Part shown: positions 59,226 to 64,000 of the stretch, in pieces
Layout: every line of letters begins with the position of its first letter
Numbering within the stretch: the stretch's first letter is position 1
Assembly (NCBI RefSeq): GCF_025665335.1
Contig: NZ_CP106869.1
Coordinates: 1,266,501-1,330,500, forward strand
Origin: Xanthomonas sp. AM6
GTDB taxonomy: Bacteria; Pseudomonadota; Gammaproteobacteria; Xanthomonadales; Xanthomonadaceae
Length of the DNA stretch: 64,000 bases
Direction of reading: 5' to 3'
Notes under the pieces: model-generated
What the model saw: the letters and a program-made list of their open reading frames with translations, nothing else
The model's database searches: none
What the model was told of the DNA's origin: nothing
Translations under genes and position numbers: made by a program

Positions 59226-59957
59226 ATGGGTAGAGGCCCCTCGATCGAAGCCCGCAAGAACGCATCCGATGCGAAGCGCGGCAAGATTTTCACCAAGATC
59301 ATCCGCGAGATCGGCGTGGCCGCGCGCGCCGGCGGCGGCGACCCGTCCAACAACCCGCGCCTGCGCGTGGCGATGGACAAGGGCCTGGCCTCGAACATGT
59401 CCAAGGACGTGATCGAACGCGCGATCAAGAAGGCCACCGGCGAGCTGGAAGGGGTGGAATACGAGGAGATCCGCTACGAGGGCTACGCCCCGGGCGGGGT
59501 GGCGGTGATCGTCGACTGCCTGACCGACAACCGCGTGCGCACCGTGGCCGACGTGCGCCACGCCTTCAGCAAGTGCGGCGGCAACCTGGGTACCGAAGGC
59601 TCGGTGGCGTTCATGTTCAAGCGCCTGGGCGTGCTCAGCTTCGCCGCCGGCGCCGACGAGGAGAAGATCACCGAGGCGGCGATCGAGGCCGGCGCCGACG
59701 ACATCGTGGTCTACCCGGAGGACGGCGCGATCGACGTGCTGACCTCGCCGGAGGCGTTCCAGGCGGTCAAGGACGCGATGCAGGCCGCCGGCCTGGCCGC
59801 CGACCATGCCGAGATCAGCTTCCGCGCCGACAACGACATCGCCGTGGAAGGCGACACCGCGCTGCAGGTGCGCAAGCTGCTGGACATGCTGGAAGACCTG
59901 GACGACGTGCAGGCGGTCTATTCGAATGCCGACCAGTCCGCGTTGAGTGGCGGCTGA
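59226..59957 (+). CDS. yebC: YebC/PmpR family protein
   Basis: Product of 243 residues with the signature [33 protein letters not shown] (start), [17 protein letters not shown] and [30 protein letters not shown]. The usual start in other species, MGRKWE/MAGHSKW, is altered to MGRGPS here. YebC proteins act in transcription regulation and, in recent work, in relieving polyproline ribosome stalling. This gene precedes ruvC, as in most proteobacteria, and the ruvC frame starts 2 nt after its stop, so ruvC is translated from the same transcript. Confidence 0.95.
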
Positions 59958-59958
59958 G

Positions 59959-60651
59959 ATGGCGATGCCCGGGACGCGGGACGTCGCCGGGACCCGGGAC
60001 TCGGGACTCGGGAACCGGAACGGCGAGTCGGCGGCGGCGGATAGATCGTCGGCGCCCGGGGCCGTACCCGCTCACGCCCGCCGCTCGGCCAGTCCTTCGA
60101 GTCCCGAGCCCCGGGTCCCGGGTCCCGGCAAAGTCCGCATCCTCGGCATCGACCCAGGCTCGCAGCGCACCGGCGTGGGCATCATCGACGTCGATGCCGC
60201 CGGCCGCACCACCCATGTCCACCACGCGCCGCTGCTGCTGCTCGGCGAGGGCGACTTCTCGCAGCGGCTCAAGCGCCTGCTGCACGGGCTGGGTGCGCTG
60301 ATCGAGCAATACCAGCCGCAGGAAGTGGCGATCGAGCGGGTGTTCATGGGCAAGAGCGCCGACGCGGCGCTCAAGCTCGGCCACGCGCGCGGCGCGGCGA
60401 TCTGCGCGGTGGTGCTGCGCGAGCTGCCGGTGCACGAGTACGCGGCCAAGGAGATCAAGCTGGCGATCGTCGGCAAGGGTGCGGCCGAGAAGCAGCAGGT
60501 GCAACATATGGTCGGCCTGATGCTGAGCCTGACCGGCAAGCTGCAGGCCGACGCCGCCGACGCACTGGCGGTCGCCATCACCCATGCCCACGTGCGCGCG
60601 ACCGCGCAGCGCCTGGGCGTCAGTACGCAACAGGCGTGGAGCAGGAAATGA
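59959..60651 (+). CDS. ruvC: Holliday junction resolvase RuvC with a repeat-encoded N-terminal extension
   Basis: Endonuclease that resolves Holliday junctions with RuvAB. The core from about residue 58 ([21 protein letters not shown]) has the catalytic Asp, [20 protein letters not shown] with the second acid, and [18 protein letters not shown] with the last two Asp residues. The product is 230 residues rather than about 173. Between ATG 59959, 1 nt after the yebC stop, and the core no in-frame ATG, GTG or TTG exists, apart from GCGATG at 59965. The extension ([20 protein letters not shown] and onwards) is read from repeat copy 3. GTG 59947 is a possible earlier start. Confidence 0.85.
59968..60128. 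repeat. Heptamer-based inverted repeat (copy 3), inside the ruvC frame
   Basis: Left arm 59968-60018 and right arm 60099-60128 are built of GGGACTC/GGGACCC units at 7-nt spacing and are largely reverse complementary. The 80-nt spacer encodes [20 protein letters not shown] within the ruvC frame. The right arm ends 3-4 codons before the conserved RuvC core. It differs from the other copies in the C-for-T variant (GGGAC rather than GGGAT). Confidence 0.8.
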
Positions 60652-60657
60652 CAAAGG

Positions 60658-60754
60658 CCGGGATTCGGGATTCGGGAATCGGGAATGGGAAAGGCAGAAG
60701 CGGTGGGGCGGGCACCCGCTTTCCCCATTCCCCATTCCCCAGTCCCCAGTCCCG
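60658..60754. repeat. Heptamer-based inverted repeat (copy 4) between ruvC and ruvA
   Basis: Left arm 60658-60690 (GGGATTC, GGGAATC units) and right arm 60721-60754 (CCCCATT, CCCAGT units) face each other around a 30-nt spacer. It fills most of the 124-bp ruvC-ruvA gap and ends 22 nt before the ruvA ATG. Confidence 0.8.
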
Positions 60755-61412: not shown

Positions 61413-63332
61413 ATGTCCTCCTCTCCCGTTCCATCCCCCGGCTCCGGCCATTCGGCCGATGCCGCGCATGGCAAGGCCGGCTTCGCGCTGATCATCGGCG
61501 CCATCGGCGTGGTGTTCGGCGACATCGGCACCAGCCCGCTGTACACGCTGAAGGAGGCGTTCTCGCCGCACTACGGCCTGAACAGCGACCACGACACCGT
61601 GCTCGGGGTGCTGTCGCTGGCGTTCTGGTCGCTGATGATCGTGGTGACGCTGAAGTACGTCACCATCATCATGCGCGCCGACAACGAGGGCGAGGGCGGG
61701 ATCATGGCGCTGATGGCGCTGACCCAGCGCACCATGCGCAAGGGCTCGCGCTCGGCCTACGTGGTCGGCATCCTCGGCATCTTCGGCGCCTCGCTGTTCT
61801 TCGGCGACGGGGTGATCACCCCGGCGATCTCGGTGCTGGGCGCGGTCGAGGGCCTGGAAGTGGCCGCGCCGGGCCTGCACGCCTTCATCGTGCCGATCAC
61901 CGTGATGGTGCTGGTGATCCTGTTCCTGGGCCAGCGCTTCGGCACCGAGAAGGTCGGCAAGGTGTTCGGCCCGATCACCTGCCTGTGGTTCCTGTCGCTG
62001 GCGGCGATCGGCATCTGGAACATCGTCGACGCGCCGGAAGTGCTGAAGGCGTTCAACCCGTGGTGGGCGATCCGCTTCTTCCTGGAACACGGCTGGCACG
62101 GGGTGTGGATCCTCGGCGCGGTGGTGCTGGCGGTGACCGGCGGCGAGGCGCTGTACGCGGACATGGGCCACTTCGGCGCGCGCCCGATCCGCCACGCCTG
62201 GTACTTCTTCGTGCTGCCGTGCCTGGTGCTGAACTACCTGGGGCAGGGCGCGCTGGTGCTCAAGCACCCGTCGGCGCTGAAGAACCCGTTCTTCGAGGCG
62301 GTGCCCGGCTGGGCGCTGTACCCGATGATCGTGCTGGCCACGCTGGCGGCGGTGATCGCCTCGCAGGCGGTGATCACCGGCGCGTTCTCGATCGCGCGCC
62401 AGGCGATGCAGCTGGGCTACATCCCGCGCATGCTGATCAAGCACACCTCGCACGACACCATCGGCCAGATCTACATCCCCGGCATCAACTGGCTGCTGAT
62501 GGTGATGGTGATCGCGCTGGTGCTGATCTTCCGCAGCTCCACCAACCTGGCGGTGGCCTACGGCATCTCGGTGTCGGCGACGATGCTGATCGACACCCTG
62601 CTGCTGGCGCTGGTGGCGCGCGCGCTGTGGCCGCGCTGGCGCAACTGGGTGCTGCCGCTGTGCGTGGTGTTCTTCGTCATCGACGCCGCGTTCCTGATCG
62701 CCAATGGCGCCAAGCTGCTGCAGGGCGCCTGGTTCCCGGTGGCGCTGGGCATCGTGATGTTCACCATGATGCGCACCTGGCGCCGCGGCCGCGAGCTGCT
62801 GCGCGAGGAGATCCGCAAGGACGGCATCCAGATCGACAGCTTCCTGCCCGGGCTGATGCTGGCGCCGCCGGTGCGCGTGCCGGGCACGGCGGTGTTCCTG
62901 ACCGCCGACGCGACCGTGGTGCCGCACGCGCTGATGCACAACCTCAAGCACAACAAGGTGCTGCACGAGCGCAACGTGTTCCTGACCGTGGAGACCCTGC
63001 CGGTGCCGTACGCCTCGGCCCGGCAGCGGCTGAAGATGGACGCCATCGGCGACGAGTTCTACCGCGTGATCGTGCGCTTCGGCTTCATGGAGACCCCCGA
63101 CGTGCCGCTGGCGCTGATGCGCTCCTGCGACCAGGGCGGGATCTACTTCGACCCGATGGACACCACCTATTTCGCCAGCCGCGAGACCATCGTCGCCAGC
63201 GCCAACCGCGGCATGCCGATCTGGCGCGACAAGCTGTTCGCGGTCATGCACCGCAACGCCGCCCCGGCCACCGGCTTCTTCCGCATCCCCGGCAACCGGC
63301 TGGTGGAGCTGGGGGCGCAGGTGGAGATCTGA
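61413..63332 (+). CDS. kup: Low-affinity potassium transporter Kup
   Basis: Inner-membrane K+ uptake protein of 639 residues with about 12 helices and a C-terminal cytosolic region. Family marks are [19 protein letters not shown] at residue 29-47, [16 protein letters not shown] and [32 protein letters not shown] (about 248) is the conserved Kup motif, and [19 protein letters not shown] is also present. The C-terminal part carries [27 protein letters not shown]. It sits between ruvA and ruvB. Start 61413 is preferred over the in-frame ATG at 61389, which precedes the candidate promoter. Confidence 0.95.
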
Positions 63333-63347
63333 GGCCGCCTGCGGCGG

Positions 63348-63459
63348 CCGGGATTGGGGAGTCGGGGAGTCGGGATTGGTCAAGGCCGTAGCGCCGAAGC
63401 CATCCCGCAGCCGATACTATTGCGTTACCCATCCCGAATCCCGACTCCCCAATCCCGGC
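63348..63459. repeat. Heptamer-based inverted repeat (copy 5) before ruvB
   Basis: Left arm 63348-63378 (GGGATTG, GGGAGTC units) and right arm 63431-63459 (GAATCCC, GACTCCC, AATCCCG) flank a spacer holding GATACTAT (63413-63420), a possible ruvB -10. The right arm ends 4 nt before the ruvB ATG. Confidence 0.78.
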
Positions 63460-63463
63460 TCCC

Positions 63464-64000
63464 ATGGACCGCATCATCGCCAGCAGCGCCACCCGCGAAG
63501 ACGACGCGGTCGAGGCCAGCATCCGACCCAAGCGGCTGGCCGACTACCTCGGCCAGCAGCCGGTGCGCGAGCAGCTGTCGATCTACATCGAGGCGGCCAA
63601 GGCGCGCGGCGAGGCGATGGACCATGTGCTGATCTTCGGCCCGCCGGGGCTGGGCAAGACCACGCTCAGCCACGTCATCGCCAACGAGCTGGGGGTCAAC
63701 CTGCGGGTGACCTCCGGCCCGGTGATCGAGAAGGCCGGCGACCTGGCGGCGCTGCTGACCAACCTGCAGCCGCACGACGTGCTGTTCGTGGACGAGATCC
63801 ACCGCCTGTCGCCGGTGGTCGAGGAAGTGCTGTACCCGGCGATGGAAGACTTCCAGATCGACATCATGATCGGCGAGGGCCCGGCCGCGCGCTCGATCAA
63901 GATCGACCTGCCGCCGTTCACCCTGATCGGCGCCACCACCCGGGCCGGGCTGCTGACCGCGCCGCTGCGCGACCGCTTCGGCATCGTGCAGCGCCTGGAG
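63464..64000 (+). CDS. ruvB: Holliday junction branch migration ATPase RuvB (3' end outside the window)
   Basis: AAA+ motor of the RuvAB complex; 179 residues are visible and the gene runs off the right edge. It starts [31 protein letters not shown]. Walker A is [10 protein letters not shown] (about 59-68), Walker B is [23 protein letters not shown] (about 107), and sensor 1 [22 protein letters not shown] is present. All match RuvB. No ribosome-binding site is seen: the space before the ATG is filled by repeat copy 5. kup separates it from ruvA. Confidence 0.95.

Follow-up and report, generated by a model that had tools for sequence, protein, structure and literature searches.

The ruvC gene of Xanthomonas sp. 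AM6 has probably lost the start codon that lies three codons ahead of the conserved RuvC core, and is now translated from a start at the stop codon of the upstream gene yebC (ATG 59959), gaining a disordered N-terminal tail of 57-60 residues. Positions are those of the window, meaning the whole stretch of 64,000 nucleotides that was analyzed (contig NZ_CP106869.1, 1,266,501 to 1,330,500, forward strand). It is the combination that is unusual: throughout a whole group the core has lost its start, and nearly all members have an in-frame start where yebC ends. Comparison of the DNA of related genomes establishes an intact RuvC core without a near start, a start codon kept at the end of yebC by 18 of the 20 members of a Xanthomonas group, and a frame that continues unbroken from there.

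The history we propose would begin with an ancestor of this Xanthomonas group in which the RuvC start codon three codons ahead of the core was lost. Ribosomes finishing yebC would, most likely, re-initiate at its stop (in the window, at ATG 59959), and translation would pass through both arms of an inverted repeat in the spacer. The product would be an ordinary RuvC carrying a disordered tail of 57-60 residues, its sequence drifting nearly freely. Only a start and an unbroken frame would then be kept (not the residues of the tail).

The yebC-ruvC region of the window

Features of the region are as follows.

59226..59957, forward strand: yebC (YebC/PmpR family), identified from the sequence, with NF001030 and TIGR01033 above cut-off
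59955-59957, forward strand: yebC stop codon TGA, one base ahead of the proposed RuvC start
59959..59961, forward strand: proposed RuvC start codon ATG, with ATG or GTG at the same place in 8 species
59965..59967, forward strand: second in-frame ATG, the less likely start from sequence comparison
59959..60138, forward strand: putative RuvC N-terminal extension of 60 codons, made of the repeat arms and the intervening stretch
59979..60013, forward strand: arm 1 of inverted repeat I2 (GGGACCC/GGGACTC units)
60102..60136, forward strand: arm 2 of inverted repeat I2, reaching up to the codon before the core
60139..60651, forward strand: RuvC core (ILGIDPGSQ...) to the stop codon, matching TIGR00228, with invariant catalytic residues
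60652..60776, forward strand: ruvC-ruvA spacer with a further repeat copy of similar kind (from the sequence and the repeat list), used as a control

The earlier note on this DNA had claimed that no ATG, GTG or TTG stands in frame between ATG 59965 and the core, and the window sequence bears this out: there is none as far as the first core codon, ATC 60139, and the bases directly ahead of it (60127-60138) read GGC AAA GTC CGC. The note's further claim, of a RuvC frame reaching back to the yebC stop with an extension of roughly 57 residues, agrees with a protein of 230 amino acids from ATG 59959, which is 57 residues longer than one begun at codon -3, the start position in most relatives. (The machine-listed open reading frame covers 59947-60651, and its GTG 59947 falls within yebC.) Repeat I2, a convergent inverted pair between genes of the same direction, has two 35-nt arms that are 89% complementary, with a 7-nt period and 88 nt between them, and the RuvC frame runs across both. 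That the spacer codons derive from the repeat arms was likewise correctly seen; across the genus group the only canonical RuvC frame contains the repeat.

Loss of the near-core start among relatives

Relatives were taken from the best 80 of 516 matches, and a later search, which matched 292 of 297 genomes, added 100 more loci. The resulting 221 ruvC loci, seven of them without a yebC motif, reduce to 182 unique 5' ends, mostly of the family. Twenty genomes including that of the window (L001-L020, the genus group) form one group on the tree with support 99; because they are related, counts over them overstate independence.

None of the 20 has a canonical start at codon -3. In 17 the six codons nearest the core contain no start at all; the other three (L006, L008, L009) have GTG at codon -2. 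The codon at -3 in the 17 start-less genomes is AAA, AAG, AAC, GCC, GAC, ACC, TCC, TCT, ACT or TTC, ten different codons, so no shared non-canonical start is visible there; codon -2 varies among GTC, GTT and GTG in 12 of the 20, as an internal valine codon would. We infer from these sequences a single ancestral loss of the RuvC start in the genus group. An error of sequencing or assembly behind the missing RuvC start, a base error being something the earlier note had itself allowed for, has a negligible probability: nothing was found in its favor, and codon -3 is no start in any of the group's 19 other genomes either.

The picture is different in named Xanthomonas that do not belong to the group. 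Among the best 80 of 516 matches, 13 of 17 have ATG at -3 (L032, L033, L036, L037, L039-L047), and arm 2 of the repeat stands directly before that ATG in all 13 of these records. The remaining four of the 17 have GTG at -3 (L048, L078), GTG at -2 (L071) or, in X. melonis L034, no near start. Of the 182 unique 5' ends, 147 carry a start no more than six codons from the core and 35 carry none; the latter comprise 17 of the genus group and 18 others, including X. melonis L034, L127 and the Luteimonas sequences L102 and L106, while two that have lost the start (L028, L030) belong outside the family. On a tree built from yebC and core DNA the start-lost state changes 17 times, and some of these changes may be regains. 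Several RuvC sequences without a near start show no arm-2 pattern (L174, L180, L181, L200, L214, L218, L219, L221, L028, L030), so that the ruvC start has been displaced repeatedly.

One locus in the collection, L094, comes from a contig labelled Bacillus subtilis (JAHREJ010000020.1), yet its ruvC is 76% identical to the query and Stenotrophomonas-like. This assembly is probably mislabelled or contaminated.

A start codon at the yebC stop

Spacers were scored for a start at the yebC stop where yebC was found and the spacer had at least 45 nt, which made 101 of 144 near-start sequences outside the group testable, and 16 of 18 start-lost ones. Within the group, 18 of 20 genomes have an in-frame start, open to the core, whose offset from the yebC stop is -1, +1 or +4 nt. 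Among testable near-start relatives, such a start within the wider range of -4 to +9 nt occurs in 6 of 101 (related species, whose counts are not independent). X. maliensis L048 has a start at +7 as well as its GTG at -3.

Three arrangements make up the 18. That of the window is shared by eight species (L001-L003, L005, L007-L010), with the codon at +1 being ATG in four and GTG in four. As ATG or GTG is kept at this place in all eight, and the second ATG (the equivalent of 59965) is found in L001 and L003 only, 59959 is favored over 59965. A second set (L011-L016, L018, L019) has ATG at +4 in all eight members. In L017 and L020, which are of the X. albilineans type, the ATG overlaps the yebC stop as TGATG; the spacer phase differs there and the start matches. 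Pairing of the upstream sequence with the anti-Shine-Dalgarno sequence gives -4.8 to -8.6 kcal/mol for the 18 starts (raw energies, without a baseline). Initiation at ATG 59959, coupled to yebC, is the likeliest reading of these alignments.

In the two exceptions, L004 and L006, a stop interrupts the frame in its upstream part, yebC has no start beside it, and an ATG is found 21 codons ahead of the core. Both cluster on the tree with the window's relatives in a group of 10 with support 100, a position indicating that the yebC-stop arrangement was replaced in them. They have to use a start that is not close to yebC, and so lend something to the idea that tail length depends on the species, with part of the group starting nearer the core. 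This idea can draw as well on the second set, where five of the eight have an ATG at -28 and two have one at -30, on the usable GTG at -2 in L006, L008 and L009, and on the other start-lost sequences, of which only 4 of 16 (L034, L127, L180, L200) have a start at the yebC stop, so that most of those outside the group must start inside the spacer. We hold it to be possible, if on the whole rather doubtful, for the group; the window itself has no start nearer than 59965, and its reading from ATG 59959 would be unchanged.

The repeat and the loss of the start

The narrow repeat pattern occurs 95 + 98 times genome-wide (overlaps counted), against none in a reversed control. Heptamer repeats of the GGGAATC/GGGNATC kind are known from Xanthomonas as G-quadruplex repeats (Rehm et al. 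2015, PMC4692102) and are defined there as at least two (GGGANTN) units in tandem, one or more of them being GGGAATC. The yebC-ruvC arms in the window contain GGGACTC and GGGACCC variants and no GGGAATC unit, while the ruvC-ruvA copy has one GGGAATC, at 60667. The yebC-ruvC copy is a variant of the GGGAATC heptamer kind and not a member under the strict rule.

The earlier note supposed that a mobile-like repeat had overwritten the native start. In the window arm 2 does extend to the codon before the core, as would be expected had the insertion of a repeat wiped out the ancestral start. Outside the group, however, a repeat of the same kind adjoins an intact ATG in the 13 of 17 named Xanthomonas (best 80 of 516 matches) described above, and the arm-2 pattern is found in 40 of 147 near-start sequences. 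On the tree of 182 unique sequences "arm 2 present" changes 14 times, and start loss shows no association with arm 2 over 13 independent pairs (median p 0.625, with few pairs informative); the pattern misses diverged arms such as those of L017 and L020. The repeat as the cause of start loss was accordingly set aside, the tree pairs (a weak test) and the repeat beside intact ATG codons both failing to support it. Nor is a mobile-like character supported: this repeat resembles the GGGAATC heptamer repeats, 83% of which are reported to hold their position between two Xanthomonas species (PMC4692102, section 14). The insertion mechanism is largely contradicted, and we judge it very improbable. The earlier note would also have counted against itself any relatives in which the repeat is followed by a start close to the core. 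Such relatives do exist, in other lineages; they show that there are two states, and taken alone do not refute the extension.

Repeats of this region have some further properties. Another convergent pair lies at window 63330-63476, just ahead of ruvB; the ruvB ATG is kept in 20 of 20 genomes, and a repeat stands directly before ruvB in the six spacers viewed. In several species both arms share a unit variant (GGGACGC/GCGTCCC in L009, GGGGACC/GGTCCCC in L004), seemingly by concerted change, and the arm units look as if one arm had been copied from the other. Most of the arms of L011-L019 mismatch.

Is the spacer translated?

The RuvC frame is stop-free in 18 of 20 spacers. Stops occur in the other two forward frames in 12 and 9 of the 20 spacers, and in the reverse frames in 2, 4 and 6. 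An open frame was dropped as proof of coding: the spacer frame is also open in 55 of 101 tested near-start relatives, and GC-rich heptamers are mostly stop-free (with all six frames considered, stops are lacking in 12 of the 16 GGGANTN types and in about 73% of GC-rich heptamers drawn at random). A substitution-only simulation of 18 genomes left all of them stop-free with a frequency of 0.010 (fitted rate, real roots); in runs of the same type the value was 0.003 when the roots were random and rose to as much as 0.089 when the rate was halved. Neither the simulation nor the pN/pS comparison included L004 and L006, which were set aside beforehand, an omission that favors the coding reading.

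Spacer length is no better a guide. The yebC-ruvC spacer has one length phase (modulo 3) in 16 of 20 genomes, and the control, the ruvC-ruvA spacer, does so in 20 of 20 (lengths 124 in 13, 163 in four, and 175, 121 and 346 in one each) despite stops in the ruvA frame in 9 of 20, with the ruvA start kept in 20 of 20. Length modulo 3 was for this reason also dropped as proof of coding. The phase argument does pass a second control, as the kup-ruvB spacers occur in all three phases. The constant phase of the 20 ruvC-ruvA spacers may be chance.

Purifying selection on the RuvC tail was sought by pN/pS in three groups of sequences, and none of any strength was found. Tail values are 0.78, 1.03 and 0.82, against 0.13, 0.10 and 0.01 for the core. 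The two shifted frames give 1.17 and 1.00, 0.78 and 1.18, and 0.92 and 1.43 in the respective groups, so that frame 0 is lowest in two of the three and never low. This want of a clear amino acid constraint is what one would see if a non-canonical start next to the core (e.g. GTC 60133 or ATC 60139) were used and the upstream frame were untranslated, and there is a precedent in that infC of X. euvesicatoria begins at ATT according to proteogenomics (PMC5559785). But no common non-canonical start occurs at -3 or -2 over the 20 genomes; ATC/ATT at the first core position is shared, but is a coding Ile; the bases ahead of the core are a C-rich repeat arm within a predicted stem; and the kept start at the yebC stop would go unexplained. 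We regard such a start as quite unlikely. The reading that fits all of the results is that the spacer is likely translated, with little or no constraint on its residues, and coding use of the repeat stretch in RuvC is likewise likely from the sequences compared.

A predicted hairpin in the spacer RNA

RNA of 59940-60150 is predicted to fold at -134.9 kcal/mol (z -5.0 against 200 shuffles), with the bases near the old start mostly inside the predicted stem. So stable a predicted hairpin within the proposed coding stretch counts against the reading that the stretch is translated. Ribosomes coming off yebC would evade the block by the stem if they started where the hairpin begins on its 5' side. 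The predicted hairpin is strong in L001-L010 and L018 and weaker in the other members of L011-L019, in L017 and in L020; as a conserved RNA structure it was rejected, being weaker in most of L011-L020, and for the same reason it is at best local, the shared feature being the start beside the end of yebC (18 of 20).

A more ambitious account would have the stop-free repeat rescue the loss of the start by way of the yebC-stop start, with the hairpin concealing the region of the old start and so making RuvC synthesis depend on yebC translation, and with the tail drifting freely. If true, a repair operon would have become obligately coupled through the action of a repeat; we think this unlikely. 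What we prefer, re-initiation at the yebC stop after loss of the near-core start, would allow the effect of a long mRNA hairpin within a translated region to be tested.

The RuvC protein

The core is recognized by TIGR00228 at 167.7 bits (cut-off 100.65) and by PF02075 at 158.3 (cut-off 22.2); a third model, NF000711, falls short of its cut-off of 163 with 131.6. Residues D65, E126, D198 and D201 are invariant in 46 aligned sequences, and are aligned with 1hjr; the catalytic acidic residues of E. coli RuvC are D7, E66, D138 and D141. The predicted model has the RuvC fold (best match 6lw3_A, TM by target length 0.93), and matches to solved RuvC chains start at residue 59-61. Model confidence (pLDDT) is below 50 at residues 1-48 of the tail and mostly above 80 in the core, and the tail has no match in Pfam up to E = 1. 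Since the first core strand in the model, residues 59-65, ends at D65, the tail exits at the opposite end of the strand. The tail would presumably be harmless, and the extended RuvC would presumably retain it in the mature protein and have normal activity.

Comparison with known systems

Here, in a naturally replicated case, a conserved repair nuclease has most likely acquired its N-terminus from a non-coding repeat, and one genus contains both start states. It illustrates how gene starts move, and cautions against the habitual placement of RuvC starts at the core. Among the matches listed from the open-access literature (title and start of abstract), no paper on an extended RuvC in Xanthomonas appears.

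The closest relatives of the repeat itself are those of Rehm et al. (PMC4692102), which share with it G-rich 7-nt units, convergent inverted pairs and a mostly intergenic position near the ends of open reading frames; unlike them, the arms in the window consist of GGGACTC/GGGACCC variants and lack GGGAATC. That source reports that 7-11% of the heptamer repeats overlap an open reading frame at least partly, and flags ruvA among repeat-associated genes. Its available text describes no lost start with a repeat as the new N-terminus, and has no occurrence of "albilineans". Longer N-termini than annotated were reported for 50 genes of X. euvesicatoria by proteogenomics (PMC5559785, with no occurrence of "ruvC" in the main text available). 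These genes resemble the present case in having upstream starts in a GC-rich Xanthomonas, but are corrections of annotation.

Compared with RuvC resolvases (TIGR00228; 1hjr, 6lw3), the protein agrees in the sequence of its core, in its predicted fold and in the four acidic residues of catalysis, and differs from 1hjr and 6lw3 in its putative tail of 57-60 residues. For repeats that enter proteins there are two parallels. The RU sequences of enterobacteria are small mobile sequences found in genes (Delihas 2007, PMC2759123); like the present repeat they are intergenic units with open frames fused to genes, but they are described as MITE-like mobile units. Rickettsia palindromic elements occur in protein genes (Ogata 2000, 2002, via PMC6649704), and here too a palindromic repeat would be translated within a working protein. 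The Rickettsia elements, however, are insertions into genes, placing a palindrome inside an existing coding region, whereas other Xanthomonas keep the repeat before the gene with the start behind it, and in the window an upstream repeat would have come to be read after a shift of the start.
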